Part shown: piece after piece, positions 1 to 61,910 of the stretch
Layout: every line of letters begins with the position of its first letter
How positions within the stretch are numbered: position 1 is the stretch's first letter
Source of the DNA: Hexactinellida sp. DTS-2022
Taxonomy: Eukaryota; Porifera; Hexactinellida
DNA length: 64,000 nucleotides
Assembly (NCBI GenBank): GCA_028753945.1
Contig: JAPNXP010000003.1
Coordinates: 186,001-250,000, forward strand
Reading direction: 5' to 3'
Notes under the pieces: model-generated
What the model saw: only the letters and a program-made list of their open reading frames with translations
The model's database searches: none
Told to the model about the DNA's origin: nothing
Program-made: the position numbers and the translations under genes

Positions 1-1700
1 GGATATATTAGACATATTCTTTAATCTTACAAGTATAAAACATACACGTAGACCCATTGAAAATTATATTTCCATAGGGAGTTTTTCTAAATAATATTGG
101 TGATTTATATATGTACCTGTATACAATTATGCCCGTCCAACATAATGATTTTCTGCCACCATAGCAGTGGCGCAAACATGGGGGTGCGCTGGGGGGCGTA
201 CGCCCCCCCCCCCCTTAAAATTGGAGGGGCCAACATTATTGGTGCTAGTGATACAGAGCCCTCTGAACAAAAAATAAATTTATAATATCATTTAGGACAG
301 TAAATATACGTATTATTCATCAAAACAAATCGATATCTGGATATCTCGCATTCCATTTTTTATGGGGTGCTTGGCCCCAGATTCCCCAAAGGTCGCTCGA
401 AACACTCGCTCCCGCTCCCCCAACTTTAACCTCATACTTGTAAAACTTTGCGTCCATGCACTATAGGAATCGTTTTTGACTTTTCACATTTAAATGTAAA
501 GTTACACCCTCCCTGGCGCTGGAGAGTTTCGGCGCCTATGCCCACATGTACCGTTTTCCATAATTTCCAACATGGTACAAGATGGGCATAAGTGGCATAT
601 GGTAACACTGGAAGATTATTTTCTACCTAATCGATGGGTAATAGAGTTGAACGCTTCTACAATGGCTAATTCGAAGCTTAGAATATTAAACTTGAATCCT
701 AAAGCAATGATGTGATGTATTTTGAATACATCATCCTGCAATATTAGACCTACTAAAGTCTATTTTCATGTAAATTTTGGGTGTAGGAATACTTCTGTCT
801 GGGTAGTATATATATGCATATCTAATATATTTGATCACGAAAACCTGGTTCAAATTTCCATTTATTATAAACAGAGTAAATATTATTAATTAAACTCACT
901 CCAAAGCGCTTTGTCATTTCTTCCTAAAAGGAAAGATTAATCAAATTCCTTAACCAACTCCAGCTTTCTTGGGCTTATAGATTTTATAAATTGACAAAGG
1001 ATACCAAAAGATTGTGTCATACTCGACACTGATACTCTTCTGTCGATATTTTAAATCCATAGCAAATCCATTAATTGTATTCGGTACGGAAGTGAACATA
1101 TGAAACTTTCAGAAAAATATAACTAGTGTGTGTATGGTAAGTAAAGAGTGTAGCAGAATGATATGTCCACCTATTATGTATTCATGTGTTTGAGGGACAT
1201 ACACTTGTCTACTGTTTGCTATAGTCAAACTAATGAATTCAGAGGTAATTCGGGTTCTAAAGGATAAAGCCAACACCCTATACATTATTTGATGCAAAAT
1301 GTATCTACAAGTGATTTCGATAGAGGTTTAATAAACAGTTTCAGATTATAACTTCCTACGCCTTGATTGGCAGATGTTTTTCCCACTTTTGTCACCTGTT
1401 TATTCCCGCATTCAAACACTGGGTTCACAATTATATTTTCACTATCAAGAATCTAAGCTTTATATTCGAAAGTTTCTCTCGATCGCTATTATTCTAATAT
1501 ATATCTTATACGACATATGACAGACATTTCAAGAAAAGAAAATAGGTGGGCCAAACTGAATTGCAAAGTCTGAGGTCTTTTAAATAGAATAAATCATAAT
1601 ATCCGAGAGTTTCTCTCAAATGGGGAAGGGCCAATAATTTAGTATGTTTGTTGTAGTTTACCATCCTATGTTTAGTATAAATGAGAGATGACCTAGTACT
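1..1700. other. No gene recognised; old GC-rich hAT-like remnant at about 170-440
   Basis: AT-rich sequence with no coding segment I can support. Around 170-440 there is a C/G-homopolymer-rich patch (CAGTGGCGCAAACATG followed by G and C runs). It resembles the termini of the hAT element at 6017 and of other small elements here, but I could not pair its two ends or find a duplication. Confidence 0.4.
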
Positions 1701-1722
1701 CTCATGTTGTATTAGCTACCTC

Positions 1723-2006
1723 CAGGGCCGTGCCACTAATACAAACTGACCAGGTCAAACCTGGGCAGAATTTTTCCAGACCAGGTTCTGACCAGGTTCG
1801 TACTAACTTACTGAGTTTCAAAACAATTAATAAGATAATATTTTTAAAGTTTAAACTAGTATAATTTTCTAGCGAAAACTCAAATAAATGAAACCATGAT
1901 ATCAAGATTTTAAGAAGTTAATAATATAATTTTTTTTCAATGGGTAGTCTAGCTTAGACTAGTTAAGTTTGACCTGGGCAGGTATCAATAGGCTCGCACG
2001 GCCCTG
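1723..2006. mobile_element. hAT-like MITE, 284 bp
   Basis: Terminal inverted repeats (CAGGGCCGTGC on the left, GCACGGCCCTG on the right) enclose a non-coding interior. The inner parts also match in inverted orientation (GACCAGGTC/GACCTGGGC). The flanks share tacctc (1717-1722 and 2007-2012), a 6-bp rather than the usual 8-bp hAT duplication, so superfamily assignment rests on the CAGGG terminus. Confidence 0.65.
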
Positions 2007-2449
2007 TACCTCTATACCCCAAAACAACATTTAGCTACTGCTGATTGACTCACTTCGAATTCTTTGTCTTCGATATACGAAATCTAGAAGATATATTGTA
2101 AAAATACTTTAAATTAGTTAAATTGATTATTCACAAATCTTATCATCATTATACTACCATAAAGTTGTGACATTTTAACTTCAATATTATTTAGTGTTTC
2201 TATTGTTCATGTACTTCTTCTAGAATCTAGGTACAACATGCTTAAGTCTATTGCAACAATTTCCAATCGATTTTAAGTATATTGGAACAATTCTATCGAT
2301 TTAAGTCTATCAATACGATTATCTACCTACTAGAACAAATATATTGTGATAAAATGTAATATTCTCGAAAATTCATAAAAACTTTTGGTCCCAAAATGGC
2401 AAAAAAAAACAATAATCGCCTACGCTACTATTAGACTATATACGATATA

Positions 2450-2766
2450 CAGGCTGCCCTCACCGTTCGCGGGAGTTACGTTCCTGAAAATTGTACGAAC
2501 TACAAATTCCCGAAAATTTCAAGATTTGTAAAAGTAAATATGCAATAGAAACAAGGAATGATAGTGCAAGGTTAAGGTGTTATAACGATATAGTATTATA
2601 GTCAAGATAAATAGTGTGAATATTTATCAATCAAGCTGATGTAATTTGAAACGATATCGCGAAAAGTTGAGGGAATATTCGGCGAACGGCAAAACGAAAC
2701 TCAAAATATTTCCCGCGAATAGTCGAAACCGCAAAAAGTAAGCTCGCGAACGGCGAGGGTTACCTG
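2450..2766. mobile_element. pogo/Tc1-like MITE, 317 bp
   Basis: Ends are CAGGCTGCCCTCACCGTTCG and its near-perfect inverse (CGAACGGCGAGGGTTACCTG), each bordered by TA (2448-2449 and 2767-2768), the duplication typical of Tc1/mariner/pogo elements. The interior has no open frame. Confidence 0.75.
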
Positions 2767-3323
2767 TATTCGCACTTATATACATACTATTAGTGTTTCA
2801 AAATTATAAATAAAGTTGAAATCGTGAATTTTGGTCTATTGATTACACTACCTAGGCGACAAAAAATCCGATGATACAAAGAACCCGGTCTGAAAACCCG
2901 ATTTCGTAACAGATTTATTTGAAGAAACTACAAAATCCATATTGCAAAATTTTGTATTTTGGTTTGGCTCGGACTTGATCAAGTTTTATGAAAAATCCAG
3001 AAGATAATATTTTTGTGTTTTGTGTGTCTTATCAACAGTATACATACTGAAGTTGCCAAAAACAATGGAATTATACTCCAGTTATCAACCAAAGTGTTTT
3101 AATAGTATAATACATATGCTATCTTCACGGATCCGGCGCTTATTCAAGCCCCGGCGCTTATTCGAGGAAATACGGTACTTGAAATATGGCCGCGATGGGA
3201 AATATCACATCTAGAACAAGTTTAAATATCTAAAGAAAATATTTAAATTTTCCCTCTTAAAAGTATTTGTATAAAAATATGAACAAATTTCAAATATTTT
3301 TTCTGTTCTATAAAGAATAGTTA

Positions 3324-3563
3324 CCGTATTTCTCCGAATAAGCGCCCCGGCGCTTTTTGTTTTCGTGGTCCAAATTTACCCTCAAAGTTTTTTGAAAATT
3401 CCAGAAAATAATATTTAGATGGATTCTAATGGTTCTCAGCGATAGTAAACATACCGTAATTTCCTAAATCACTACAATTACATTTCAGTTATCAATTAAT
3501 GGGTATAAATTTTATCTTACAGATGCCATTTTACAGACCCGGCGCTTATTTTGGAAAATACGG
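3324..3563. mobile_element. Small TA-flanked MITE (CCGTATTT family), copy 1
   Basis: Inverted ends CCGTATTTCTCCGAATAAGC and GCTTATTTTGGAAAATACGG lie between TA dinucleotides. A related end is seen at 3133-3177, and the left 220 bp of another copy lies at 52764-52983, where a Ginger-like element cuts it off. Non-coding. Confidence 0.65.
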
Positions 3564-4067
3564 TATTAATTGATTGGGGCATATTAGGAGCGAAATAGGA
3601 TAAGCGTGCTTTTATAAAATAAATAAACAACTTTATCTTCATCATCCGAGTCTGTCGCTCTCTAAAATAAATAAAAATGAATTGAAACAGCAAATTTAAT
3701 CCACACAGTAAAAACAACATTTCCCTCAGCTTGCTAAACACTCTTTATATTATATAATTATATACAAATTTCTTAAATATCTTCTGTTATGTAAACAAAT
3801 GTTTTTAATTGATTGGATATATTAGGAACCCGAAGGTTGCATTGTGCGGACACTTTATGTCCGCAGCCACAAATTGCAAGCGAGGGGAGTGAACGGTTTT
3901 ACGTACAAGTATGGGGGAAGAGCGAATTAATGGACTGTTGCTTCTTCACATTTATAATGACATGAAGAAAGATATAGAAAGCATAGTCTAAGAGTTTGCA
4001 AGACGCCATTCAAGAAGACTAATGCTTATTGTCATAATAAATGATACCATTTAGATGGATTTTAATA

Positions 4068-4614
4068 TATATGTTATGTCGATTTTGTCAAATAGTCGAT
4101 TTTACAAAATCAACATCCAAAATGTCGATTTTGTAAAATCAACATACAAACTTAAGTTTAATTTGTAAAATAGTTGATTTTATAAAATCGACATTTTTCA
4201 TTTGTTGATTTTGTAAAATCGACATTTCAGAATGTAGATTTTATAAAATCAACATTTTTAATTAATTGATTTTGTAAAATCGACATTTCAGAATGTTGAT
4301 TTTATAAAATCAACATTTTTTATTAGTTGATTTTATAAAATCGACATATTCTATTCGTTTATTTTGCAAAATCACCCTGGAATATTTTTTCATTCTAGTA
4401 AAAAAAATTCATTTTGGTAAAATTTTTCTTCATACAAGTCGGTATATACTTGTATGAAGCGAATTCTGAACAAAACGCAATAAAACCGAGGCCTATCCGA
4501 GTAATATAGCCAAAGTTGAACACTTGTTTTAGTTCCGTTGATTCATGTTGATTTTGTAAAATCGACATGTTGATTTTGTAAAATAAACATTTGACAAAAT
4601 CGACATAACATATA
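4068..4614. mobile_element. MITE made of self-complementary GTCGATTTTGTAAAATCAAC-type units, copy 1
   Basis: Ends are TATATGTTATGTCGATTTTG and its inverse. The left half is an array of about 30-bp units, each nearly its own reverse complement (TCGATTTTGTAAAATCGACA), so the array could extrude as multiple hairpins. The right half is unique sequence shared with the copies at 19437 and 20008. No coding capacity. A TA target is suggested by the second copy. Confidence 0.7.
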
Positions 4615-6008
4615 CATACCATTGAATGCCAATTGATTAAGATATTTGAGATGGATTTGTTACTCTACTGGATCCAAGAATGGTTACAAATCGATGTCTG
4701 GGAAAATAAAAATCAATTTATTTCGGGGAAGCTTGCCCCCAGACTCCCCTTACGGTTGCTCGTTTCACTCGCTTCGTGAACCCCCACATAGAGATACCCT
4801 GCATCCGCTCCTGCGTATATTGATATTACTATTGTTCTGCAAACAATGCTTACGATCACTCCAGTTATATCGAGTTCCAAGGGACACTCTTTATTAATTA
4901 CTTCGATTTAAGGATAATAAAATTCATTGCTTTATTGTAAGGGGATAAAAATTACTTTGATATAAGCGGATTTTTCAAAATAACAGTTCTTTATATTATA
5001 AATGGGAATTTACTGCATATCATATTGTCTGTTCTATAATTAATTAACTATTCTGTTACTGTTATTTTCCTCATTTATGGAAATTTTCTCTAATTTTCCA
5101 CCTTACGCTTATGAAGGTACTTGTGATTTATCTCGGTTCCTACAATACAAATCAACTGGGTATAATTACCTATATTTAACTACAGGCGGTCTTATTTGAA
5201 TTTAATTAATTGATAATTGTATAGAGAACTTGAAAATACCCAGCCCCCTGAGGTAAAGTCTATATCCATCACTGCTATCTATATCATTAAGAAAGCCTGG
5301 TACGTCCATCCGTCCTCCCCTGTAACTCTTTCCGATCATGGTGATGCACATATCAATCGAATGCTCTTTGAAGGAAGACCTCGGGAAACATAAGGAGTTT
5401 CAAAAAAGTGTTAGTTCCAGAATTATACAGCATTTTGTGAATACCTACTAAATATGCATAGCTACTGCCAACTGGGATACTAATCCGATTAGTTACTGCC
5501 AACTGGGATACTAATCCGATCCGATTGGTTACTGCCAGCTGGATTTTTATTAGCCCTATTGGTTACCAACAGGGTTGTCTACCAATACAACAATTTGCCC
5601 ATTTTAACTTAAATCTCTACATCATGCAAATGAATCGAGAGTCAGACGAGTCACAGTTCCCTTTCGCACACCGTTTCCCGGTTGATCATTCGTGTCTCCG
5701 AAATCAATCTGAAGAAAAGCAGCTAAATTCTGCGAGTAGGCAGCAGCGCAGGTTGGCTATGTGCCTAATACAACACTCGCTATCCGAGAAGAAAACGCTC
5801 AGCTGCACCGTCATTCGCGAGCCGCACAGGGCGAGCGTAACCTTAGATGCGCGTCACGCTAATCTTAATAACTTCGTGGAGACTTCGTACAAATTCGTCA
5901 CTCCTACGGTCAATTTTAAAAATGCTGTGGCCACTGTGGTGCCTTTATGGATAGGAGAGTGTGTTCGGGAAAGCCTACTCTCTGTCAGGCTCAATTTCCG
6001 ATTGCATA
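4615..6008. other. No gene recognised; diverged repeat shared with 10210-10560
   Basis: Around 4700-4810 there is a GC-rich patch resembling the one near 370-430. From about 5460 to 6008 the sequence (tandem 'ccaactgggatactaatccg' units and what follows) matches 10210-10560 at lower identity. An open frame of 182 codons starts here but runs into the terminal repeat of the hAT element at 6017 and shows no domain, so I do not call it a gene. Confidence 0.45.
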
Positions 6009-6294: not shown

Positions 6295-8465
6295 ATGGCA
6301 CATTCAACTTCAAATTATTCGCTTGAAGATCATATTATAGCAAAGAAGCAGAAACTTGAAATCCAGCAAGTACCAAACCAACCTAAACAAATTAGTTTTC
6401 CCCTTGACGAAAAGAACAATAGAAAATTTCTTCCCATATGGTTTAAAAGTTTCCCTTGGCTTGAATGGGATGATAAAGTAAGTGCAGCTTTTTGTCATCC
6501 ATGTCGGCAAATCTTTTTAGTTGATTCAGCTAGGTGCAGCAACAGCAAGAGTTAAGATACTTTTATTTCATCAGGTTTCAAAAATTGGAAGAAAGCCGTG
6601 GAAAAATTTAAAAAGCACGAATCTTGTCATGCGCATCATTTAAGCGTTGACAAATTTAGCAATATGTTAAGAGGTCAAAATATTGCTGTAATGTTAAGTG
6701 ACCAATTTGCTACAGAGAGAAAGGATGCTACTGAGTGTCTTTAACGCATCTTCACAACTATTCGTTATTTAGCAAGACAAGGCCTACCAATTCGCGGCCA
6801 TTCAGACTCTGATTCAAACTTCAGACAGCTTTTATATTTACGTACAAGTGACTCGAAAGATCTACAATTGTGGCTACAAAGGAAGACAACATGGACTTCA
6901 AAAGATATACAGGAAGAGATAATTGACTTAATGTATTGTGATGTAGTGCGTAATTTCGCAAAACAAATCCGTTACCGAAAGTATTTTGGGATAATAGCAG
7001 ATGAAACAGCAGACATTTCTCAGGTTGAACAACTCAGCATCTGCTTACGGACAGTAGATAATGAGTTAAATCCAGAAGAACAGGTATTTGGGTTCTATGC
7101 TCTGGACAAATGTGATGGCGAGCCTATTTTTAAAGCAATCGAAGATGTTCTATTGCGTCTTGATATAAATATAAAGAATTGTTTCGGAATGACATTTGAT
7201 GGAGCTTCTTCCTTTAATAACAATTCAGTTGGTGGTGCACGCATTAACGACTTAGTACCATCAGCAATCAGAACTCATTGTCACATGCATTGTGTGAATT
7301 TGGCTGTCCAAGATATTGTAAAAATGTAAGCATGATGCGTGATTTCCTCCATTTTGCAAATGATCTCATTGTTTTCCTTCGTAACTCTCCTAAACGATGT
7401 ACAATTATACGAAATACCGCAATTCTACTTGAAAACCCACAAACTCACATCAGACCCCTCTGCCCAACACGCTTCACTATGAAGTGCACGCTTTAAATGG
7501 ACTTAGTAAACAGTTGGACATAATAATTGAATCTTTGTCTATTATAGAAACGCAATCGTTTGACATCAAAATAAAAGCAAAGGCAAGTGGCTTCCTTCGA
7601 CGTTTGGGAGACTTTGATATATATTTTGCACTCTTAATTTCTTTGCAAGTTTTTGAATTGACTGACAGACTTAGCAAAGAACTACAAGGAAGAGAAGTCT
7701 CTGTTGGAAGAGGAGTTAAGCTTGTTTCGTATGCTATAGTTGAACTAGAAAAAATGCATTCTACAGAAAGATTTGTCCAGCTTTGGAAAGAAGCTGACGA
7801 ACTTCGTAGGCAGCATGGGGGCAGATCCTCCAAAGTTATTCCGACAGATAAAACCACCACATCGCTTCCAAATTGACGAACCTCACATATATAATGAACC
7901 TCGAGACTATTATCTTGAAAAGTACCACGAAATAATTGCCTTTTCCTCTGCGAAACTAAAAACACGGATTAGTGACAAGGCATTACCAGTGTTGGGAGCA
8001 GTGGAATTACTACTAATTTCAGGCTGGAATGGGAATTCAATCGAGAAGAAAAACATGCAGATTGTTTGTAAGCATTATGGTTACGATAAACTCGACTCTA
8101 GGCGCCTAGAAGCTGAACTCATCAGTTTACAGAATTTGAATGAAAATACTGGCATAACCAGCGTACATGAAATAATAAAGCATATTGGACAGAGTGAAAT
8201 GAAAAATATGCTTCCTATGGTGTTAACAATGATAAAATATTATTTATTTTGTCCTGCTTCAACTGCTAATGCAGAACGATCATTTAGTCATCTTCGACGG
8301 CTGAAGACTTATCTTCGTAGCACCATGACTCAAACAAGGCTAAATTCGCTTTTGATTTTGTCAACTTATAAAGAAGAACTTGATCTTCTTGATATGAAGA
8401 AAATATTGAAAGAATTTACCAGTCGAAATGAAGTGAGACAAAATATATTTGAAACTTCATTATAA
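6295..8465 (+). pseudogene. hAT transposase relic (TTF zinc finger, DUF4371, hAT dimerisation)
   Basis: Reading through several frames, the order of domains is that of the ZMYM1/P52rIPK-like branch of hAT transposases. An N-terminal TTF-type zinc finger comes first (FPLDEKNNRKFLPIWF ... FCHPCRQ, about 6395-6520). A DUF4371-type catalytic half follows (6868-7329, with FGIIADETADIS and MTFDGASSFNNN). The C-terminal hAT dimerisation segment is last (8200-8460, CPASTANAERSFSHLRRLK). These proteins cut and join hAT ends in the nucleus. The frame is broken by a stop at 6553, a stop near 6743, a shift or stop near 7328, and another shift near 7860. The copy therefore cannot make a full protein. The ATG at 6295 follows a short leader after the terminal repeat and is the likely original start. 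Confidence 0.88.
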
Positions 8466-19436: not shown

Positions 19437-19970
19437 TATGTATATGTTATGTCGATTTTTTCAAATGTTGATTTTGCAAATTCAACATGTCGATTTTACA
19501 AAATCAACATGAATCAACGGAACTAAAACAAGTGTTCTACTTTGGCTATATTACTCTGATAGGCCTTAGTTTTATTGCTTTTTGCTCAGAAATCGCTTCA
19601 TCCAAGTGTATACCGACTAGTATGAAGAAAAAAATTTACGAAAATGAAATTCTTTTACTAGAATGAAAAATATTCCAGGGTGATTTTGAAAAATCTACGA
19701 ATAAAATATGTCGATTTTATAAAATCAACATTTTTTATTAGTTGATTTTGTAAATCAACATTTCTAATTAGTTGATTTTGTAAAATCGACATTCTGATAT
19801 GTCGATTTACAAAATCAACATTTCAGAATGTCGATTTTATAAAATCAACACATTTAATTAGTTGATTTTGTAAAATCGACATTTAAGAATGTCGATTTTA
19901 CAAAATCAACTAATTAAATGTGTTGATTTTATAAAATCGACATTCTGAAATGTCTATTTTTTCCATAGTT
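19437..19970. mobile_element. Self-complementary-array MITE, copy 2 (inverted orientation)
   Basis: Begins TATGTTATGTCGATTTTTTC and carries, in reverse order, the unique half of the element at 4068-4614 followed by the TCGATTTTGTAAAATCGACA array. Its far end is lost where 'ttttttccc' sequence starts near 19960. It lies 40 bp from the next copy, facing the opposite way. Confidence 0.65.
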
Positions 19971-20007
19971 TTTTTTCCCATTGTTTTAACTTGTTTACCT
20001 ATTTGTG

Positions 20008-20621
20008 TATATGTTATGTCGATTTTGTCAAATAGTCGATTTTAGAAAATCAACATCAAAAATGTCGATTTTGTAAAATCAACATACAAACTTAAGTTTA
20101 ATTTGTGAAATAGTTGATTTTATAAAATCGACATTTTAAATTAGTTGATTTTGTAAAATCGACATTTCAAAATGTCGATTTTACAAAATCAACATATTTT
20201 ATTGGTTGATTTTGTAAAATCGACATTCTGAAATGTCGATTTTACAAAATCAACATTTCAGAATGTCGATTTTACAAAATCAACTAATTAGAAACGTCGA
20301 TTTTACAAAATCAACTAATTAAAAATGTCGATTTTACAAAATCAACTAGTAAAAATGTCGATTTTATAAAATCGACATATTTTATTCGTTGATTTTGCAA
20401 AATCATCCTGGAATATTTTTTCATTCTAGTAAAAATTTCATTTTTGGTAATATTTTCTTCATACAAGTCGATATATACTTGGATGAAGCGAATTCTGAAC
20501 AAAATGCAATAAAACTAAGGCTTATCCGAGTAATATAGCCAAAGTCGAACACTAGTTTTAGTTCCGTTGATTCATGTTGATTTTGTAAAATCAACATTTG
20601 ACAAAATCGACATAACATATA
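20008..20621. mobile_element. Self-complementary-array MITE, copy 3
   Basis: Same ends and internal layout as 4068-4614. The flanks 'atttgtg' and 'acaacaacaacaaatattc' join to give the uninterrupted 'atttgtgtaaacaacaacaac' seen near 20755. The insertion therefore went into a TA within that repeat, giving an empty-site check. Confidence 0.72.
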
Positions 20622-25439: not shown

Positions 25440-25773
25440 TAAATTAAAACACTCACCGAAGGTTGAGGGCATGTATTTGCCCTTTGGAGACTCTAAAATA
25501 ATATATTAAATATTAAATACATATAAATATATATACGAATTCCTTAGTCTCGGTCGCGTAGCGACTGGTTACTCAAAAATTTGTAATCTCTATTTTTAAA
25601 TTGTAAATAACGACAATAATTATCTACGAGCGCGCTTCGAGCGCCTCGTGTTTCCAAATCAACTAATAAAAGTTGTGTATAAGAGAGAAGATACATGAGG
25701 TTTTTGAATGAGTTTCTATCACATTGGCAAATAAATGATTGGTTAGATGAATTTATTTCACTCAATGAAATTG
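25440..25773. repeat. Repeat family A, left part, split by the Transib element
   Basis: Together with 29314-29720 this is one copy of a non-coding family also present at 60594-61030 and, partly, at 61831-61900, 42060-42310 and 11930-12030. The piece up to 25773 ends 'gatgaatttatttcactcaatgaa' plus ATTG, and the continuation resumes at 29314 with AATTG then 'cagcctcag'. The family carries the 'ggtctcggtcg' palindromes and an AC-rich run. Confidence 0.75.
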
Positions 25774-25804
25774 CACAGTGTGGCAAAATGGCCATCTAGG
25801 CATA
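25774..25804 (+). promoter_or_regulatory. Left transposon end: CACAGTG heptamer, 16-bp spacer, conserved block
   Basis: 25774-25780 is CACAGTG. After 16 bp (25781-25796) comes TAGGCATA, where a hAT MITE has split the block; ATAGGTA resumes at 26332-26338. Joined at the duplication, the block TAGGCATAATAGGTA equals that of the right end. This is the presumed transposase recognition site. Confidence 0.8.
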
Positions 25805-26323
25805 CAGTGTTCCCTCTAAGAATCCGTGACGGATCCTTTGGATCCGTGAAGTTAATTTAAATTCCGTGAAGACACTTCCTGTGGGAGAAAAATTCAGTGC
25901 TCAGATTTCATGTTCTACCGTACTCGGGAAAAAGTACAAGGGGCGTGACTAGAACTACCACGTTGACTTCCCTTCAGTGAAGCGAGAAAGCGCTGGACAA
26001 CCTGTACATCTCCAACCTAACGAAGACTACTTCGCAGACTCTGATTTCGAACCGGATTCTGAGGAAAGCGATGAGGATGATTACGATTACGAAGTGGTAC
26101 AAAAGAGTGGCTTTCTGGTAGAGGAATTCTGAAGTGAGAATGATTAGACTTTTCGCCACACTATCTTTGCATACATCAATAATAATGTTAACAATATAAT
26201 AATCCTTATAATCCTATAAATGAAATTTAAGGGTCCGAAATCCGTAAAATTTCCGTATTTGCCTTTGGCAAAAACAAGCAAATTTCCGTACGGAAATTTT
26301 TTAGTGCATTAGAGGGAACAATG
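25805..26323. mobile_element. hAT MITE inside the Transib left end, 8-bp TSD TAGGCATA
   Basis: Ends CAGTGTTCCCTCTAA and TTAGAGGGAACAATG match inversely at 14 of 15 positions. TAGGCATA is duplicated exactly (25797-25804 and 26324-26331), and removing one copy restores the Transib terminal block found intact at the other end. The interior is non-coding with short inverted segments (aaatttccgtacggaaattt near 26280). Confidence 0.92.
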
Positions 26324-26471
26324 TAGGCATAATAGGTATTTGCGTCCTAGATATGTCTTACAAACATATTATTTACATATAGGAAACCGACCCTTTAGAT
26401 TCCAAAAATGCAATCAAATTTAGTTTAACACATCATGATAGGTGACAATGATACAACACTTCTAAAATATA

Positions 26472-28648
26472 CTAATTAGGAAAAATTAAACTGTTAAAAA
26501 GGTTGTCTTGGTAGCTATTACTAGAATGAAGACTCAACTTCGATTTCTTCTTAAAGTGATAATTAGCTAGAAGTGGGTCACTACAGCACAATAAGCGAGT
26601 TTGAATATCACGGACATTATCTGAGAAAGAAATTTTTCGAGATAGATTATCCCGATATCGCCTAACGTATTTGTTGCAAGATTCTAAACATTCCTCCGAA
26701 ATATTGCTCAAACTATAACCGTTGTTATAAGATTGAATTACTTGGTATGAATGAGAAAGCAATTTATGTAAGGAAGGTGTTATATTGACCCATGAGAAAG
26801 TCACTAGAATAAATTCATACGTTTCCTTACACAGTTCCTCTACCTTGAGTGTGTTGATATTTCTTTGCTGTTGATTAAACGTAGAACTACTGAAAGATTC
26901 TTTTGGATAACTTCCAAATAATTTTTATGATTTGAATCAATTGATGACGTTGCCCACTTGAGGAAGTCTCTCTTATTCATGAAGCAATCGCGAGCCACAT
27001 TACCCGTTGTGGAAGTTCCACCATGAGGAGAAGGAATATCTACTCTAATATTACACTTTTCTTCAATAATAGATCGAACTCGTCTCATTGATGCTTGGAC
27101 CTTACTGTTAGTTGGCGACCATACTTTGTGTCCAGCATCCAAATGGTATATGAGCAACATAAACCACCTGAAAACGCATAGGTATGCATGCAAAGGGGAT
27201 GCTGATACAATGTTGATATCAGATGTTGGTTGATGAGTTATCCCAGTTCTTTGTTTAGATGGAAGTTTCAAAGATTCTTCCTGATCAACTTCTTCAAAAA
27301 TCAATTTAGCATCTGAGATAAATCTATTAATGGGGAATCCAGCTCTGACCCAATCAATACTCATAATCTGAGAATCAGTTGCAGTACAGAGATGGCATGA
27401 AGCTCCTCCAGCTCCATCTAGAAGACCGGCCATTTTAGTATCGAAAAGTGAGCGAATAATCTTAACATTGACATGAACTGGAGGTAGTGTAAAACCATTT
27501 TCCACAATACACTTAGTATCTGGATTAATTAGAGACTCCATGATAAACTTTACATTATCGTAATCCTCTTTTAGGGCAACTAATGCCACAGGTCTAAATG
27601 AGAAGGGAGAATTTGGGAAACTATTGGTGAAGATATTGTTGCACGAATTATCTAGAATATTTACCACTTTAAAGTCAAATAGAATAAAGCTCTTGGTACT
27701 CAGGTCAGGATGGATATTGACTTGATTGTAAATACGATGTGAGCCGGATCCATCTAGACCATCTGCTATTGTTGCGTTAAGAGGAAACTGAGATTCGATA
27801 AGTGGATCAGAAATTAATAAAATACGTTCAATTGTATGTTGAATAAGTATGTGGTATGGTAAACATGTTCCAACTGGAAAATCTTGAGGGCTTCTGACAA
27901 TATTTATTTGCTCTGCTAAACTAATTTCCCTACGCAATTGGGAAACTAATTTATAAGATGGTAGTTTTACACCTTCACTCTTAAGGATTCTTTTAAGTTC
28001 GGAATATTTTGTCGCGCCAATTTCCAAGCTATCAATTAAATAGGAAGATTTCGTCAACGAAACTCGATGTAGTACATCACTATAACAACCTTTATCAACG
28101 ATTTCTTTGGAAACGTTGGAAGTGTTTCGATCATGTGTTTCGTTAGAAACAAGTTGTAGAGAAAGAGCAACGAGTTGTTTGGGTGTGATATTTTCTCTTT
28201 CGGCAAGGAAATGAATGTGCTCAAGAAGGACGGCGAGCCGGAACCTCGAAGTGGTTAGGTTACATTCTAATATAGGTTTCCTTGAACCAACAGTTACATC
28301 TTCAGAGAAATAACGTTCATCAGGAAGAGTTAGCAAAGAGATTGATAATACTTCTGATTCACTAGAAATTCGTTTCTTTTTAGAATGTGGAAGAGAGACT
28401 GAGTGAAAAATAAGTTTATCCCAATTTACTAAATCATTCCGCTTGCGGAAGCTTTCCCGGGTAGCTACAAGGGATTTATATCTATAATGTAGCATATCAG
28501 TATCTTCTTCTGGGACTAATGGATCAAGAACAAGAAGACTTCGGACAGCGTTAGTAGCACTCCGACTTTTTGATACAAAAACAGAATATGCTTCTTGGTT
28601 TGTGATCATTTTGCAAAATAATTGAAATTCAACACTAATATTTAGCAA
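26472..28648 (-). pseudogene. Transib/RAG1-like DDE transposase with one frameshift
   Basis: Two minus-strand frames (28648-26840 and the adjoining 26860-26472) form one protein of about 725 residues, the usual Transib length and without a RAG1-type RING region. Residues are numbered from the ATG at 28648. DGLDGSGSH places an aspartate at 296, where RAG1 has D600. LFDTKMAGLLDGAGGASCHLC gives an aspartate at 403 (RAG1 D708) and a CxxC at 418-421 (RAG1 zinc pair). TTGNVARDCF matches RAG1 NGNFAR. After the break come VEELCKETYEF, SLHKLLSH (HxxxxH zinc histidines) and EECLESCNKYVRRYR, whose ESCNK carries the RAG1 E962 equivalent. All three catalytic acids and the zinc ligands are thus present. 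The break is a 1- or 2-base shift near 26843-26865. The product would act in the nucleus, nicking beside CACAGTG and joining ends to target DNA. A more distant Chapaev-like assignment is possible, but the DD(x)n-CxxC-HxxxxH-E layout favours Transib/RAG1. Confidence 0.87.
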
Positions 28649-29284
28649 AAATATGCCATTAATATATACATTATATATTATATATGAGTATTTCTCTAAT
28701 TAAATGCCTCCTAATTACAATTTTGGAAAATTTGATATAATCAAGAAAAAAAATATTGTCCGATTTTTTTCACTGCCAGATTTAAATTTGCATAAAATTT
28801 GTTTGGGCGGCCTTGGGCGGGTCTAGAAACAAATTAAAACCAAATTAGAAAAATATAAATGGAGTCCACAATAAGCAGTTTTTTGTCAAATTGTGTCAAC
28901 CAAAAGATGCAGCACTTATCACCCCGAAAAAAATCAGATATTCCAAATTCAAAAATTCGAAGAATATTTCTTTGAAAATTGTTTTCAAAATCAATCTATA
29001 CTAAATGTAATCCTTGTAATTTCACAGTCTATAGCCTAATAAAGCATACAAACTAATTCAAACTAGACAAAAGACCCAAAGGAATGTAGAACAGCAATTT
29101 GAATTCACACATTTATTTGTGGTTTTTCAACTATTTAATTTATATCCAAAAATAGACTTACTTGAAATAAATTTATTTAGGCAACAGATATGAATTCAAA
29201 GGATTAGAATAGCATTTATTAATCTATTTATATTAGAGAGTAATAAGGAATAAATGAATTGACTAAATATCGTTGTCAAATTTT

Positions 29285-29313
29285 TACCTATTATGCCTAA
29301 TTTCCACACTGTG
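29285..29313 (-). promoter_or_regulatory. Right transposon end: CACAGTG heptamer, 7-bp spacer, conserved block
   Basis: Read on the minus strand: CACAGTG (29313-29307), seven bases (29306-29300), then TAGGCATAATAGGTA (29299-29285). Same heptamer and block as the left end but 9 bp closer together. Confidence 0.82.
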
Positions 29314-29720
29314 AATTGCAGCCTCAGAAACGCTTTCTATTATGCAGTCTATTTACACTAATTGAATGAAGTCAAGCTAATCCATTTTAAACAAACACTC
29401 GAATTTAATTAGCTACATATTTTGTCAACTTTTGGTGAAAATGCGAATATTTCTCATCAAAAACCAATAGATCGTCCTCGCAGTGCAAAATTACCCCTGG
29501 ATACAAATTTTAGCTTTCTGGGACTCGTAGTCTAACCAATTAATTCTGGGCAAACAAACACACACACATACAAAGAACAATTGTGTTTTTAATATACGAG
29601 CCCTTCGGTCTCGGTCGTTTCGCGACGGATCACTCTCTCACAAAGGTCGCTTCGCGAACTTTGTTGGTTCGTGTTAGACACTACGTAACACAATTAACGG
29701 CCGCTTTGCGGCCTTACCCT
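29314..29720. repeat. Repeat family A, right part
   Basis: Continues the repeat interrupted at 25773: 'attgcagcctcag', 'ctttctgggactcgta', an AC-rich run at 29550-29575, then 'gagcccttcggtctcggtcg' with complementary palindromic steps (gtcgctt/gcgaac). It aligns with 60640-61030. Confidence 0.75.
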
Positions 29721-42327: not shown

Positions 42328-44155
42328 ATGCCTAACTCGTGTTCTGTCCCCGGAGTAAGAGCAACTACAACCCAGATATCCATGTTCCTGTGTTCAGGAT
42401 ACCTCAAAATCCACCAACCCTGAATCATGCCTGGACATGCGCTCTTCGTCGAGGATTCGGTGACCACAGGGTGGTCTATATATGTATCGACCATTTTCAG
42501 AAAGAAGACATAGACTACACTTTCCAAGTCCCAGAAGGAGATGGTACTTTTACTGAAGTCCCGCGGGCAAAGCCAAAGCTGAAGGAAGGCGCTGTACCAA
42601 GTTTACTAACTCGCTGCCCAGCGTATTACTCATCCAAACCTAACAAACGGAATCGCTTCTCATACGATGCGAAAGAGGAAGACTTGATGAACCAAACACT
42701 ACAACTCAGCTTGAGATCCGAGAGTCAAGAGAAAGAGAAGTTTGTGGTTTACTCTACAGGACTTGAAAGATAAGTTAACCTTGATTTGAATCTGTTTTGC
42801 AGGAACTTGCTTTAAAATACAACTCGAGTTCTTATTGTGATTATCCCCTTAAGTTCGGTTGTGCATCCTTTGAAGATGTACGTAATTATATAATTCGGAA
42901 AGAACAAGTTTATCCAAGTTAGCTCCTCATTTGACTATGGAGTCATGTTTTCCGTCTAGCATAGAGCGTCAAAATGTAAAACTGGTTTTGAAAGTCGTTA
43001 ACCAATTAACAATATCTGCGCTAACTATCCAGAATATAGATTTGTTGATACACTTCTTACTGTTTGGAAATTATTCAACGTTAACACACCATTTAAAGGA
43101 ATACATTTGAACGATAATTTCACTAGACCTTTGACTTTTAATGACGAGCGATTTCTATATTTGACTCGTGTAGTTTTTGTTAGATGCTTGGCAAACTTTA
43201 CCAGAAAAAATTGGCAAACTGAGTAAACAAACATACACCAGTTTTAGACATGCTTGTATTGCCTTACCACAAATTACCAACCATTTGACTCAAACTGTGG
43301 CTTTAAATATGTGTTATCCTCCTTTCTACAGACGGATCCCTTGGAACACCATTTCGGTCTATACCGTATGATGTCGGGTTCTAATTATCACATCTATCTT
43401 CAAATCCTTGAACCGTGCATCCACTTGAACTTTCTAGCATATTAAACATATTTACTGACAAACAAGACACTTCCTTTCAATCTATTCTGTCATTTGTTAA
43501 GTCATTTTCTTGTCCGCATTCCACTACTGATGGTGAATTCAATTTGGAGCCATTTCTTGATGAGATTCATGACCTATCAACAATTGATTGTGGTTCACAG
43601 TTGCTTCAATCATTAGCCTTTATTGTAGGCTATACTGTCCATCAGTACCTGAACGAACAAAACTGTGTCATGTCTATCTACATATGCTAACACTTGATAA
43701 AGAATTTGTCCTTTATTTGAACTTGGACTCTCAGTATAAACTTCTGGAGCTAACGGACCGTGGCGGACTTAAATATCCATCTGAGCCAGTTTTGGAATCC
43801 ATTCTTGTTTTATGGAAGACCTTTAGTGCCATCGAAAACAATATAGACTGTAATAGAGCTGTTGGCGAAACTTGTAAGTGGACCTTCTAGAAAAATACTA
43901 GTTGAACTTTCGTTGATGTGGTATTTGGAAGTCTACTTGTATTAGCGGTGTGTTTAGTTGGAACATCTTATCGAAGCTAGTCTACCGCAGCGAATTGCTT
44001 TCTTGCAAACAAAGTTAATAATTATAACTCGCTGGTTCCTTTCAAAAAGTATAGAGAAGCGGAAATTAAAGAATTCTCTTAATTATGTGTCTACTTATTT
44101 GTATTTACCATGGTTTGTATTACTCTGTTTATTCTTCTTTCTATTATGTAGTTAA
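42328..44155 (+). pseudogene. THAP-domain P-element-like transposase relic
   Basis: The ATG at 42328 opens MPNSCSVPG, the start of a THAP zinc finger. One base is missing at about 42354-42355 in the codon of the second zinc cysteine, after which the finger continues in another frame (KSNYNPDIHVPVFRIPQNPP, W at HAWTCALRR, CIDHF as the C-x2-H pair, AVPSLL as the AVPTIF motif). Downstream blocks match THAP9/P-element transposases: KLAPHLTMESCFPSSIERQN (about 42917-42980), YPEYRFVDTLLTVWKLFN (about 43028-43080), LDAWQTLPEKIGKLSKQTY, and QTDPLEHHFGLYRMMSGSNY (about 43330-43390). The remaining C-terminus reaches about 44155. At least four frame changes make it non-functional. The original protein bound element ends through the THAP finger and cut DNA in the nucleus. 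Confidence 0.82.
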
Positions 44156-51232: not shown

Positions 51233-51994
51233 TCATTTCATCGGTTTCGTTAGGTTCAATAGAGGTGCACCTAGATGCTCTTGTTGGATGCCATCCGAGA
51301 TTACTGTCCGGTAAGGTGAGTTATTATCCCGTGAGGTTACCTTACAGCGGTTCAGATGGACGGTTCTCCTCCTTCCGTCGCCCATGTCTACTGTGACGTT
51401 CGGGGGATCGGCTTTCACTACGAGGAAGGGCCCATTGTACCGTGGATCGAGGCTGTCAGACTTTGCATCGTTGCGAAGGTACCAATAGTCTCCGTTCGTA
51501 ACTGTTGTTTCCTTCCGATCCTTATCGAAAGTCCGCTTCATAGTGTCCTGGTAGTTTTGTAAGTTCGTGCGTGCTGATTCAACTGAGCGTTCCACCCCAT
51601 GTGAGGCTTCTTCAAACCAGCTGTCGGGCGTCATTCGCGGCTGCCCTTCGCTTGTATGGAGTCGCAGGTTGGGGATAGGTTCGGAACCATGCATGACATG
51701 GAAAGGCGTGAGTTTTGTGCCAGAGTTTGGAAGAGTGTTGATTGTGTATGCCACTTCCTGTAGCAGTTCGGGCCAGCACTCCTTAGTCAACTCAAGTTGC
51801 GATATAATACAGCGTAGAGTCTGTTTGACCGTTTGTATATTGCGCTCGGCCTGACCGTCCCCTTGAGGGTGGTATGGCGAAGAAAGTACCTTTTTCACCC
51901 CTAGCGAGTCTAAGGACCGGCGAATCTCTGCGCCATCAACGTTTGGGCCCTGATCGCTTAAAACTGTTTCGGGTAGGCCATGCCGGTGTAGCAT
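51233..51994 (-). pseudogene. Gypsy integrase, C-terminal part of pol, truncated
   Basis: An open minus-strand frame of 253 codons begins inside the integrase core at HGLPETVLSDQGPNVDG (second catalytic aspartate). It continues with SSPYHPQGDGQAERNIQTVK (catalytic glutamate in QAERN), then the NTLPNSGTKLTPFHVMHG segment and a C-terminal YNGPFLVVKADPPNVTVDMG module of the GPY/F type. This is the end of Gypsy pol. The 5' remainder, including the first aspartate, reverse transcriptase and gag, is absent. Homology stops at about 51994, where the 'tatacccggg' array starts. The methionine at the start is internal to the domain, not a real start. Stop at 51233, then about 150 bp to the priming tract and LTR. 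Confidence 0.87.
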
Positions 51995-51997
51995 TCC

Positions 51998-52190
51998 AGA
52001 TTAACCTCCATCAGTATATACCCGGGTATAATCTGTCCTAGGCCAGAATATACCCGGGAGTATATTCTGTCCTAGGCTAGATTATACCCGGGTATGAAGT
52101 GGGCTAGCCCAAAATATACCCCTCTAGCCCAGATTATACCCCCTTGTGGATGTATAATCTGGGCTAGGACAAAATATATCCCTCTCTTAT
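51998..52190. repeat. Array of 'tatacccgggtataatctg' units, left member of an inverted pair
   Basis: Degenerate units built from TATACCCGGGTATA and TCTGTCCTAGG(C) steps. The stretch 'gggtatgaagtgggctagcc' is matched inversely at about 58425-58450 within the array at 58330-58560. The two arrays face each other across the Ginger-like element. Confidence 0.75.
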
Positions 52191-52983: not shown

Positions 52984-53700
52984 TGTCGGAGTGCCAGCGG
53001 TCCCCCGTGTCAGATGTCCCCCCGGACATGTAGCCCTAGGGCCAGATGTCCCCCCTCAGGGTCAGATGTCCCCCACTCGGACTCCTCACCCTAGGGTCAT
53101 ATGTCCCCCCGGACGAGTGGCCCTAGGATCAGATGTCCCCCCGGACAAGTGGTCCTAGGATCATATGTCCCCCTGGACCAGTGGTCCTAGGGTCAGATGT
53201 CAACCCAAACCTGTGGCCCTAGGGCCAGATGTCCCCCCTCAGGGTCAGATGTCCCCCACTCGGACTCCTCACCCTAGGGTCATATGTCCCCCCGGACGAG
53301 TGGCCCTAGGATCAGATGTCCCCCCGGACAAGTGGTCCTAGGATCATATGTCCCCCTGGACCAGTGGCCCTAGGGTCAGATGTCAACCCAAACCTGTGGC
53401 CCTAGGGCCAGATGTCCCCCCTCAGGGTCAGATGTCCCCCACTCGGACTCCTCACCCTAGGGTCAGATGTCCCCCCGGACCAGTGGCCCTAGGGTTATAT
53501 GTCCCCCCGGACCTGTGGCCCCTATGGTCAGATGTCCCCCCGGACCTGTGGCCCCTATGGTCAGATGTCCCCCCGGACCTGTGGTCCTAGGGTCAGATGT
53601 CCCCCCGGACCTGTGGCCCTAGGGTCAGATGCCCCCCCGGACCTGTGACCCTAGGATCAGATGCCCCCCCGGACCTGTGGCCCTAGGGTCAGATGTCTTC
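52984..53700. repeat. Left terminal array of about 30-bp GC-rich units
   Basis: About 22 units of CAGATGTCCCCCCGGACCTG followed by TGGCCCTAGGGT, with a higher-order unit of about 185 bp repeated near 53040, 53225 and 53405. An open frame across it is composed only of the repeat and is not a gene. Confidence 0.88.
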
Positions 53701-54639
53701 CCTCAGAAACCTCACAATAGGGCCCCAGAATACTAAATTTCACAATGCACGTCACTATGTTTCATATTCTACATTTAAGCTACATATATTCCCAATATAG
53801 ATTTCTATCACTAGTTAGTAACAATATCCTATTGACTAGCATATGCATTTTTCGATTACAACAATTACGATGACATTTAACAATAATATATAATTGTGAA
53901 TTTGTGAGGTACGTATATTGTATTTTGTTATTGTAATCCAGATGTTGGAAAATGTTTATGATGAACTTTATGAATATGCAGCTTTTACCCGCTACCCAAT
54001 AACTTCATCTAAGAACGAACGCCGCATTATACGTCGCAAATGTTTTGAGCACTATTATGCAGCTGATGGCTTGTTGTACTACTCCAGCGTTGGCACTAGC
54101 AAAGCGTTGAAATTATCTAGTTTACTTGAAAGAAAATGGAGGATGGTGGCACGTTCACTTGAAGAAGGAAAAAGAATAATTGATTCAAGCCATTCCAGCC
54201 CTTTTGGTAAGTACATAGACTATGATATGATTACCGTATTAATTATTAATGATTATACTGTCTAGTTGCTTCCTATTCTTTGTTTTCTACAGCTATCTTA
54301 TTCTTCAAATTCCTATAGGTGGACACTTTGGAAGAGATAAGACATACGAGAAGATTGCATCCCGTTTTTACTGGCCTAATATGTATTTCGAAGTAAGTGA
54401 GTACATTACAGCTTGTGACATTTTCCAAAGAATTAATGAATGCGGTAAATTTGTGAAGGCAAGAGCTCCCCTTCACCCAATAAAAGTGGAATCAGAAGTG
54501 TGGAAGATGGTACGTGTTCCGTGTTCCTATTGAGTTATATAGTCATTACTTTTCTCAAATACATTGTACCATCACTGATGGTAGAAATCATTTAACTTCC
54601 TCCGCCTGCATCAAATTGCATGGATAAATTGTGCTACAG

Positions 54640-55390
54640 AAAAATATTTATCCATGCGTGACCTTCGATATATAAGGCCTGAGTGCTGGTTTGAACCATG
54701 GATTACTTAAAGTGCATTGAAAAATGGAGAATTGTTCTTTATCCCAATAATTAGCAATGATAGAGCTGAAAAGTGTATTATAACTATATAGGAATATGGT
54801 ACCCAGGTATACATAGCACTCTCCAGAATTGTGATATGTCATCATCTGATGACGTAATGGTAATTTTGGTTGCGAATTATCTTGTTTTTCTAGCATACTT
54901 TTAACATAGTTAAACGCGTTATAAATGTTCAAAATTGGAACATGGTTATACCCATAACTAGTTGAAAAAAATATATCGAAATTATAAATGGAATGTTGAC
55001 ACATTCCTCGGTTGCCATGGAAATGTATATTTCCTAAATGTGTCATAACTCAAAAACTATGAATGTTATGTAAACTAGGCTGGTACTGATCTGTCCGGAA
55101 TAGGTAACTTCCTATTCATTGATAATACATTTTATATGCCTAACTTCAACAACTTTTGAGATCATGACATAATTAACACTTAATTCATTATTAGGTAATG
55201 ACTCACTATCTCAAAGATGATTGAAGTAATAATACATAATACACTTTTCAGCTCTATCATTGCTAATTATTGGGATAAAGAACAATTCTCCATTTTTCAA
55301 TGCACTTTAAGTAATCCATGGTACACAAATTTTCGCTTAGCACTCAGGCCTTATATATCGAAGGTCACGATCCATGCAATATTTATAATT
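54640..55390. repeat. Foldback MITE in the third intron-borne segment
   Basis: 54645-54785 ('tatttatccatgcgtgacc', 'gcctgagtgctggt', 'agaattgttctttatccca') is inverse to 55230-55382, with a central unique part of about 440 bp. It lies wholly inside the intron between exons 2 and 3, which explains that intron's length (1.1 kb, against 69-152 bp for the others). Non-coding. Confidence 0.78.
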
Positions 55391-55399
55391 AAGTATACA

Positions 55400-55524
55400 T
55401 AGTGTAACCTCGATTATCCGAATATGTTGCGACAAGTCAAAACGTTAAGGGTAGCGGGACCATACGTAGCGTAGATACATGTGGGACTACCATTATTTGT
55501 GTTCGGATAATCGAAATTGCACTG
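55400..55524. mobile_element. Short MITE with 'cgattatccgaa' ends
   Basis: TAGTGTAACCTCGATTATCC and its inverse GGATAATCGAAATTGCACTG close a 125-bp segment in the same intron. The CAGTG terminus and small size suggest a pogo-like MITE; the duplication is unclear. Confidence 0.55.
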
Positions 55525-57734
55525 ACTGTGAATACTTTTGATCGAATGAAAATCAGACGAACAAATCCTTGTTTCAAATATCTTCTACTTGTTTTCTTCG
55601 ATATATAGGTTGGAGTTGATCTAATTGGGCCTTTACCGGTGACACTTAGAGGTAATAAATACATAATAACCTTGGTGGATTACTTCTCGAAGTGGCCTGA
55701 GGCAGAGGCACTACCAAATAAGACTTCGAAAGGTGTTGCCCTCTTCTTTTACAAGACTATGTGCAGATTTGGATGCACCAAAATCATTATCAGCGACCAG
55801 GGACGAGAATTCGTCAACCGTGTGAACCAGGAAATGTTTGAATTGACTAAAACAAATCACAAGGTTTCTACAGCCTACCATCCTCAAACAAATGGTTTGG
55901 TTGTGAGATTTAACCAGACACTTCAACGTGCTCTCGCAAAGCTCGTAAAAAATGAACAGAACGATTGGGATCTGTACATTGATGGTGTTCTATTCGGTTA
56001 CAGGACAGCAATACAGAAGTCAACGGAGAAAACACCTTTCGAAATAATGTACCTCCGGTAAGTTTTGCGAATTAAAACATACTAGTAATAAATACAATGT
56101 GAGAAAGAACGAACTGTTATAATACTAACTAATTTATAGTCAAGCTATACTACCAATTGAGATGGAGATTTTGCATGAGGAACTAAACATGACTGTTGAC
56201 CCTGATCTAGACACCTTCATTGATAACATGAATAACATGAAGAAGAATTTATATGGAAAAGTTGATGAGAACATTCAGAAGTCACAAAAGAAACAGAAAA
56301 AGGATTATGACCAAAAGCATAAGCATTCAACAGTAATAATAAAATTTAAGAAATTTTAATTTCGTTATATTTACTTATCATCTTCTTTACTATTTATATA
56401 GAAATTGAAACCAGGTACACTTGTTCTCCTTCGGAATAGTGCTATGGATGGAAGGAAGGGGAATAAATTTCGAATGAGGTATCAAGGACCATTAGAAATT
56501 TTTAAAGATTTGGGGAAGGGAATTTTCAAGCTTCGCAATTCTAAAACAGGTCTTATCCTTAAGAAGACTCAGAATGCTAGCCGTCTAAAGCTTTACCGAA
56601 AGAAGGATCACAAACAGTCACCTCCACCTAGCTCAGGCTATCGACGTGGAAAGCGCTGTGAGAAACGATCTAGAGTTATAGACTCTGATAGCGAAACATG
56701 CAGCAATAAGTCGGGAGGAACCCTTTAGATCTCATCTCTATCTGAATCGGAATCTGACGGTAGAGAAAAGAGTAGTAAAGACTCTATCAAACCACTTATA
56801 ATACCATCGAATCAAGATATACATCAGTTGAAAGCAAATGAGGGGACCAAGGTCAGTAAAAGCATTAAATGCTGTCTAATATTGCATTTAATATCGAATA
56901 CGTACAAACAATATTCAGATGAGATTTTGATATTAACCATGTACATTATTCCATTAACTATTGGTTTTACCAACCATAAAACAAGACTTATACTTTATTT
57001 TAGGAATCCATAAGCTGGACAATTTCATCGAGTCCTCCTTCGCCTTCTCCATTCTGGGTCCATAGTCTGGAACTTAGTCCAAGGGATGAGTTGGAATTGC
57101 TGAACGGATTTTGGCTGACAGATAAACACATTGTTGCAGCTCAAAAACTGCTGAAAATACAGCACTCAATTATAAATGGTCTCGACGATCCCCTCTTACT
57201 AGCAGAAAGGTTTCAGTATAAGTCAACTGCAAACTCGTTTGTTCAGATCATCAACCTAGGTAGGACACACTGGGTTTGTACTTCAAGCATAAATTGTACA
57301 TCTGGAGTAGTTTATGTTTATGATAGTATCCCAGCATGTTCCTTCGGATCATCATCTCTCAAGAGACAAGTTGCAGCGATATTACAGACAAGTGAGCTTA
57401 CCTTTGAATTACATTTTGTTGAAACCCAAAGACAATCAGGCGGATCGGAAAGTGGACTCTTTTCAATTGCATTTGCTACAGCACTGTGCCAAGGTATTGA
57501 CCCACATAACTGTTCATTTAATCAGACCCAAATGAGGGTACACCTTCACCACTGTTTGGAACAAAGAATTATCACTATGTTTCCGCCATCAAAAAAGTCA
57601 AGGCGAATGGGCTTAAAGAGATGGAATCGAATGATGTTAGTAAAATAGATGTTAGTAATACATGTAGTAGCAATTCATTAGTTTTCAACATGTATCTGTG
57701 TCAGATTATGGGTTATATAATTGCTTACGGGAGG

Positions 57735-60593: not shown

Positions 60594-61030
60594 TAGACAA
60601 ATGATTGATTGGTTAAATGAATTAATTTTCAATCAATCAAATTGGAGCCTCAGGAAATATTTCTATTATGCACAGGCTATTTATACTAATTGATGAAATC
60701 TGCTAATCCATACTAACAAACCCTCGAATTTAATTGGCTAACATATTTTGTCACCTTCAAATGTGAATATTTCTCTTCAAAAACCAACAGATCATTGTCG
60801 CAGTACATAATTACCCCTGTATACAAATTTTCAGCTTTCTGGGACTCGTAATCTTTCCAATTAATTCTGGACAAACAAACAAACAAAAACACAAACACAC
60901 AAACACACAAACACACAAACACACAAACACACAAACACACAAACAAACACACAACAATTCCTCTTTTTATATACGAGCCCTTCGGTCTCGGTCGCTTCGC
61001 GACGGTTCTGCACTTTACGCCTCAATTGAC
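60594..61030. repeat. Repeat family A, copy with an empty Transib target site
   Basis: Matches 25735-25773 joined to 29314-29640, with a single AATTG at 60640-60644. It contains a (CAAACA)n/(AC)n run at 60880-60950 and ends in the 'gagcccttcggtctcggtcg' palindromic block. Cysteine-rich open frames on the minus strand derive only from the AC run. Confidence 0.8.
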
Positions 61031-61740: not shown

Positions 61741-61830
61741 TTATCAAATCCATTATATTCAGATTAGTAAAAAAAGTTTTTATAGTTAGGCGTACTAAAG
61801 GAAAAACATTCAATGTAAAACGTGCACAAA

Positions 61831-61910
61831 TCATTGGTTAGATGAATTTATTTTCAATCAATCAGATTGCAGCCTCAGGAATATTGTATATTATGTATTC
61901 AAATAATTAT
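61831..61910. repeat. Repeat family A fragment
   Basis: 'tcattggttagatgaattta' to 'gattgcagcctcagg' gives a second uninterrupted version of the Transib target (near 61864). Confidence 0.65.

Follow-up and report, generated by a model that had tools for sequence, protein, structure and literature searches.

A dead Transib transposon in a glass-sponge genome and its relatives with unequal CACAGTG ends

The stretch of DNA analysed here (the window, 64,000 nucleotides of the glass sponge Hexactinellida sp. DTS-2022, positions 186001-250000 of contig C12 in a 112.4-Mb assembly of 18 contigs) contains a transposon at 25774-29313. It is a Transib-superfamily element, a DNA transposon of the cut-and-paste type, and this copy is dead. 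Its gene, broken into two frame pieces, lies on the reverse strand between two ends that start with the same heptamer and carry an inner box at different depths. The parts of the element and two related sites in the window are as follows.

25769..25773, no strand: target-site duplication AATTG, left copy
25774..25804, forward: outer 31 bp of the long end (3' side of the gene), with heptamer CACAGTG at 25774-25780 and a 23-bp spacer; an uninterrupted counterpart occurs in copy L051
25805..26323, no strand: nested 519-bp insert resembling a miniature inverted-repeat transposable element (MITE), with ends CAGTGTTCCCTCTAA and CATTGTTCCCTCTAA and a hAT-like 8-bp duplication TAGGCATA at 25797-25804 and 26324-26331
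26331..26340, forward: long-end inner box AATAGGTATT, separated from its heptamer by the insert
26472..26924, reverse: C-terminal transposase piece, 150 amino acids, with HxxxxH and the catalytic glutamate (SEECLESCNK)
26840..28699, reverse: main transposase piece, an open frame of 619 amino acids with its first ATG at residue 31, carrying the NBD-like region, the first two catalytic aspartates and CxxC
28720..29277, reverse: non-coding part 5' of the gene
29278..29292, reverse: short-end inner box AATAGGTAAAAATTT
29293..29313, reverse: short end (5' side of the gene), with heptamer CACAGTG at 29307-29313 and a 14-bp spacer
29314..29318, no strand: target-site duplication AATTG, right copy
60598..60895, forward: paralogous repeat with an uninterrupted target site
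61828..61895, forward: second paralogous uninterrupted site

Insertion is apparent from the flanks. Joined with a single AATTG, they align to 60598-60895 (83%, 307 columns) and to 61828-61895 (84%, 68 columns) without a break at the junction. This agrees with a preliminary description, made from the sequence alone, which had reported CACAGTG at both ends (25774-25780, forward; 29307-29313, reverse), AATTG outside them and empty sites in paralogous repeats. The heptamer on its own was rejected as evidence, with six occurrences in the window against 4.1 expected; what gives the ends weight is the extended inverted repeat, the 5-bp duplication and the empty sites that accompany them. The D-D-E residues, CxxC and HxxxxH that had been said to be retained are indeed all present when both pieces of the reading frame (28699-26840 and 26924-26472) are aligned to relatives, and no other open frame of at least 120 amino acids occurs within the element. 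The view that the copy is near-intact apart from one small frameshift was too favourable. The copy is broken twice, by the frameshift and by the 519-bp insert, which has short inverted ends and splits the left end 31 bp from its outer edge, and other genomic copies are far better preserved. The preliminary description mentions neither this insert nor the inequality of the ends. A 98-bp piece related to the insert (93%) is found in locus L004.

The transposase matches RAG1 and Transib proteins both by sequence and by fold, being 22% identical to HzTransib of Helicoverpa zea (PDB 6pqn-6pr5) in the fold alignment. P element, Hermes and ISCth4 also matched by fold, which was set aside as general DDE kinship. 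Alignment to relatives shows that the window transposase includes the region resembling the nonamer-binding domain (NBD) of RAG1. A 66-column profile of this region (P0001 95-160, 12 sequences), run against 177,635 PDB sequences, gave 17 matches. The top 16 were all RAG1, with the NBD-DNA entry 3gna in first place (3.7e-5), and the 17th had an E-value of 0.37. Because the members taken singly gave at most weak and mixed Pfam matches (RAG1 in two of 12, best 0.047), we base the NBD link on profile and fold. Placing the element in another superfamily, such as Chapaev, hAT, P or CACTA, is contradicted by these matches as well as by the 5-bp duplications of other copies described below, and we give that assignment practically no credence.

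With its D-D-E core nearest Transib, 5-bp duplication, CAC-initial inverted ends and single gene, the element belongs to Transib. Profile columns 428-475, past the CxxC, align to RAG1 and RAG1L and are present in the window protein, whereas HzTransib has 12 residues instead; we read this region as a putative equivalent of RAG1 alpha11-alpha12. Together with the NBD, it could point to a RAGL (RAG1L-RAG2L) transposon that has lost its RAG2L. However, the profile scores HzTransib at 186 bits and RAG1L at 82, and the window element has no second gene. A genome-wide search for RAG2 families gave no match, but the control genomes gave none either, leaving it without a positive control. Moreover, Tao et al. 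2022 (PMC9435367; this and the other articles cited here by accession are taken in their accessible parts) describe this region in Transibs of Subgroup I as well, and descent from a RAGL transposon appears improbable to us.

According to Tao et al. 2022 (PMC9435367), Subgroup I Transibs all have asymmetric ends, the alpha11-alpha12 region and the tail CTT1, whereas Subgroup II has both asymmetric and symmetric ends and has lost the alpha11-alpha12 region; NBD equivalents occur in both. The window element resembles Subgroup I in its unequal ends (not exclusive to that subgroup), 5-bp duplication, NBD, alpha11-alpha12-like region and one transposase gene. It differs in its glass-sponge host and in CACAGTG ends with 14/23 spacing. 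A C-terminal CCHC-like knuckle, which may correspond to the CTT1 tail, was found in P0002, P0005 and P0013 (Pfam zf-CCHC 0.01-0.03, below cut-off) and by eye in P0014 and P0037, all from sister families, but not in the window piece or in P0001 of Oopsacas minuta. From the unequal ends, columns 428-475 and the tree grouping we therefore name the element a Transib, Subgroup I-like, where Subgroup I was compared by its published description.

In the tree (32 rows, LG+C20 PMSF), 23 rows of the window's kind, from its own genome, O. minuta and others, were grouped with 99/99 support against HzTransib, P0036, the P0035 group and RAG1 with RAG1L. The window protein and P0001 are sisters, as are L025 and P0040 (each 100/100). 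The deeper order is unsure because the HzTransib, P0036 and RAG branches are long, a point on which the tree program itself gives a warning. All 13 distinct named relatives (3 among 36 rows and 11 among 32, one common to both) are from O. minuta, and a public database already lists relatives from this species as 'V(D)J recombination-activating protein'. The proteins P0035, P0057, P0058, P0060 and P0062, of 775-795 amino acids (PF12940 at 1.3e-8 for P0035), form a second RAG1/Transib-like family and lie on contigs of 3-5 kb. Searches with A1 of GTDB contigs and IMG/VR for prokaryotic or viral relatives gave 25 and 22 pattern matches, none of which was confirmed.

At least 76 matches to the 619-residue piece were listed in the genome, including the window's own (71 of 850 candidates were scored). 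Fifty loci were taken, L001 being that of the window, and a scripted search found a pair of ends in 26 of them and none in 24. We grouped the 26 loci by end sequence into 17 families, which differ by at least 28% in DNA that is still alignable. The heptamer is CACAGTG at 33 of their 34 ends and CACATTG at the other, the finder having required CAC. A 5-bp duplication is exact in 24 of the 26 loci and matches at four of five positions in the remaining two, with A at position 2 in 13 and T at position 4 in 15 of the 24. The preliminary description had proposed other copies' termini and duplication length as a check, and this came out in its favour. Its Transib identity, RAG1 kinship, 5-bp duplication and heptamer equal to the consensus of the V(D)J recombination signal sequence (RSS) hold. 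The contrast it drew between an AT-rich target and the usual Transib sites was a single draw: the mean G+C content of the exact duplications, 24 in all, is 42.5%, where the window has 36.4% and the fetched loci 34.6%, and an unusual AT-rich target was rejected.

Some families have moved recently. Over 3.7 kb, copies L003 and L017 agree at 99.9% of positions and have different duplications; in five further families, members are 98.0-99.4% identical; and 11 of the 26 loci have open frames of 708-743 amino acids. There are at least 17 families, divergent and in part recently active, in which, as far as examined, the RAG1-like protein is the only one encoded. The family to which the window copy belongs is older. 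Its 5' part (query 28720-29313) has 34 genomic matches besides itself, the best two at 94% and 96% and the other 32 at 74-83%. Copy L051 (C13:1773120-1774720) is a 1429-bp, non-autonomous, internally deleted member of this family, 94-96% identical where compared, which has CACAGTG at both ends, the duplication TAAGT/TAAGT and an uninterrupted long end, CACAGTGTGGCAAAATGGCCATCTAGGCATAATAGGTATTT. In L028, also of this family, the short end keeps CACAGTG and no long end was found.

Both ends of each family share CACAGTG and the inner box, which lies deeper at one end. Leave-one-out matrices with 45 offsets left free placed the box 14±1 bp past the heptamer at the upstream end of 16 of the 17 families, and 23±1 bp past it at the downstream end, again of 16 of the 17. 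The long-end core matrix, when applied to short ends, had its peak no more than 1 bp from the corresponding position in 13 of 17, compared with 7.3% of 850 shuffles. A genome-wide search for CACAGTGG followed by ATAGGYATTT, with a free gap of 4-34, gave 169 places (reversed control, 0), and among the 100 listed the gap was 23 bp in 82, 24 in 11, 22 in six and 21 in one. For CACAGTGG followed by ATAGGNAAAAA there were 30 places (control, 1), with a gap of 14 bp in 28, 13 in one and 24 in one. Because many of these places are copies of one another, the counts measure sharpness and not independent origins. Inward-facing pairs less than 7 kb apart among the listed places comprised seven long-short, one long-long (from two different families) and no short-short.

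The long end lies on the downstream side of the gene in 25 of the 26 loci, where the orientation of non-representative family members was judged by eye. Locus L045 contains a Transib copy (1341-5118) with its gene segment inverted relative to the long end. For this reason it was rejected as a breach of the fixed orientation and was turned for the spacing tests. An ordinary symmetric Transib whose ends differ by drift would accord with the statement that most Transib families have symmetric ends (PMC8289069), but box positions that are equal in 16 of 17 families at such divergence contradict drift, and we consider this explanation very improbable.

The window element is probably a dead Transib copy resembling Subgroup I, with a transposase on the RAG1 plan that would pair a short with a long end without RAG2. 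That plan comprises an N-terminal domain of the nonamer-binding type, an RNase H-like D-D-E core and a CxxC...HxxxxH site. Read from the sequence, its identity, ends and 5-bp duplications, the 14-bp upstream and 23-bp downstream ends and the domain homology are established. By analogy with RAG and ProtoRAG, the cores of a transposase dimer would hold the two CACAGTG heptamers, while its paired N-terminal domains would hold the inner AATAGG boxes. An offset of 9 bp is about one helical turn and would keep the box facing in nearly the same direction, so that a short and a long end could fit one dimer whose paired N-terminal domain is able to tilt. This combination would be the productive synapse, as a 12-RSS with a 23-RSS is for RAG, but with no need for RAG2. 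Cleavage of the synapsed pair at the heptamers would be followed by its insertion at a target cut with a stagger of 5 bp.

Several observations weigh against this reading. The sole pointer to a short-plus-long pairing rule is conservation. The end-finder script demanded CAC and allowed at most two more mismatches to CACAGTG, and the 24 loci of 50 lacking an end pair were dropped. In a decayed copy of the window's family on C2 (L052 and L053), the long end begins with CACAATG and the heptamer of the short end can no longer be recognised. Pfam gave no match for the 619-residue piece and only sub-threshold ones for the 150-residue piece (DUF3907 at 0.0061, RAG1 at 0.013). In L020 the box lies off both expected positions, so that its placement depends on a tied +9 alone. 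Direct end-to-end comparison of the 17 representatives, a weaker test than the matrices, had +9 or +10 as best or tied offset in 13, the ties being with +16 in L014, -12 in L019 and +6 in L020. The offset was -9 in the inverted L045, while +9/+10 came second in L025 and L035 and was absent in L029; L010, a member of the L008 family, had +14. In single families, the best match was equalled by at most 10 of 200 shuffles (beating 95%) in only 11 of 17, including L025 at another offset, and in L019, L020, L029 and L035 it was reached by 63-112 of 200.

The extra bases of the long end may also be a binding site and not a spacer, since a conserved TGGC-containing motif occurs in most families: long-spacer positions 9-12 are T, G, G and C in 12, 13, 14 and 12 of the 17. 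The long end would then be long because of an additional site for a factor or the transposase (the AATGGC motif), with its spacing unread and no pairing rule. The pattern CACAGTGGNNNNAAATGGCNAT, which occurs 21 times against none for the reversed control, accords with this. On the other hand, by our count ATGGC is absent from 84 of 100 listed long ends (types such as CTGTAGTT, ACAGGTAC and others). These represent numerous copies from a small number of families, and in all of them the box remains 21-24 bp away. Spacer length is thus better held than the motif, and we regard an extra site as a less likely explanation than pairing of unequal ends, though one that deserves some weight.

The sponge ends share with the RSS of RAG1/RAG2 the heptamer CACAGTG (the consensus according to PMC8289069) and one 23-bp spacer, and the NBD and core are homologous. 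They differ in a short spacer of 14 instead of 12 bp and in the box AATAGG instead of the nonamer ACAAAAACC, which likewise counts against the reading of the ends as a short-plus-long pair; they are also transposon-borne, and no RAG2 was found. In the algal transposon AanRAGL, from Aureococcus (Tao et al. 2022, PMC9435367), the spacers of two conserved elements also differ by 9 bp (4/13, compared with 14/23 here), but that transposon carries RAG2L and its first element is CACACCCAAACCT. ProtoRAG of amphioxus (PDB 6b40) has 27/31 spacers and RAG2L inside the element, unlike the window copy, and is described as favouring its asymmetric end pair (PMC8289069). HzTransib ends are said to be symmetric (PMC8289069).

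Unequal Transib ends are already published, including in a few insect Transibs (Kapitonov and Jurka 2005, as cited in PMC8355894); new here are further members with unusually clean spacing data. Our literature search found no paper joining Transib with a hexactinellid. Titles and abstract beginnings on Transib and sponges contain no treatment of sponge Transibs, and the accessible parts of PMC13337447 name Porifera only for other matters. By word search, the main texts of two glass-sponge genome papers lack Transib and RAG1, and that of Tao et al. 2022 (PMC9435367) lacks sponge and Porifera. One review ties recognition of the 12/23 asymmetry to RAG2 (PMC8355894). It is conceivable, although in our view somewhat less likely than not, that NBD-bearing Transib transposases of glass sponges intrinsically pair short with long ends without RAG2, using a heptamer identical to that of the RSS and a 23-bp spacer, and that this trait has long been conserved, which would make the 12/23 logic older than RAG2's role and than vertebrates. 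Sister copies with the RSS heptamer and short and long ends make the origin of the 12/23 rule testable. Families with a RAG1-like protein only, as far as examined, an NBD, the RSS heptamer and 14/23 spacing in one orientation allow a test of whether that protein alone enforces pairing. The value as an outgroup for RAG evolution seen in the preliminary description holds for the whole set of families and their unequal ends, but not for the window copy itself.

The window contains other features. At 6745-8465 (forward) lies a broken hAT transposase, whose DUF4371 (2.4e-12) and hAT dimerisation region (2.9e-8) are split between different open frames. At 53002-58212, an integrase core (rve, 9.1e-11) and a sub-threshold Ulp1-like protease match lie between two large arrays of 32-bp tandem units in inverted orientation (arms of up to 235 bp, 86%); the whole is possibly one large integrase-type DNA transposon. 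At 51233-52000 (reverse), sub-threshold matches to rve (0.0034) and MLVIN_C (0.0046) mark a weak, retrotransposon-like integrase remnant. The palindromic unit GATTTTNTAAAATC makes up two related arrays, at 4090-4594 and 19460-20405, which are 15 kb apart and show periods near 30, 61 and 90 bp. A THAP domain at 42336-42773 is compatible with an animal host.
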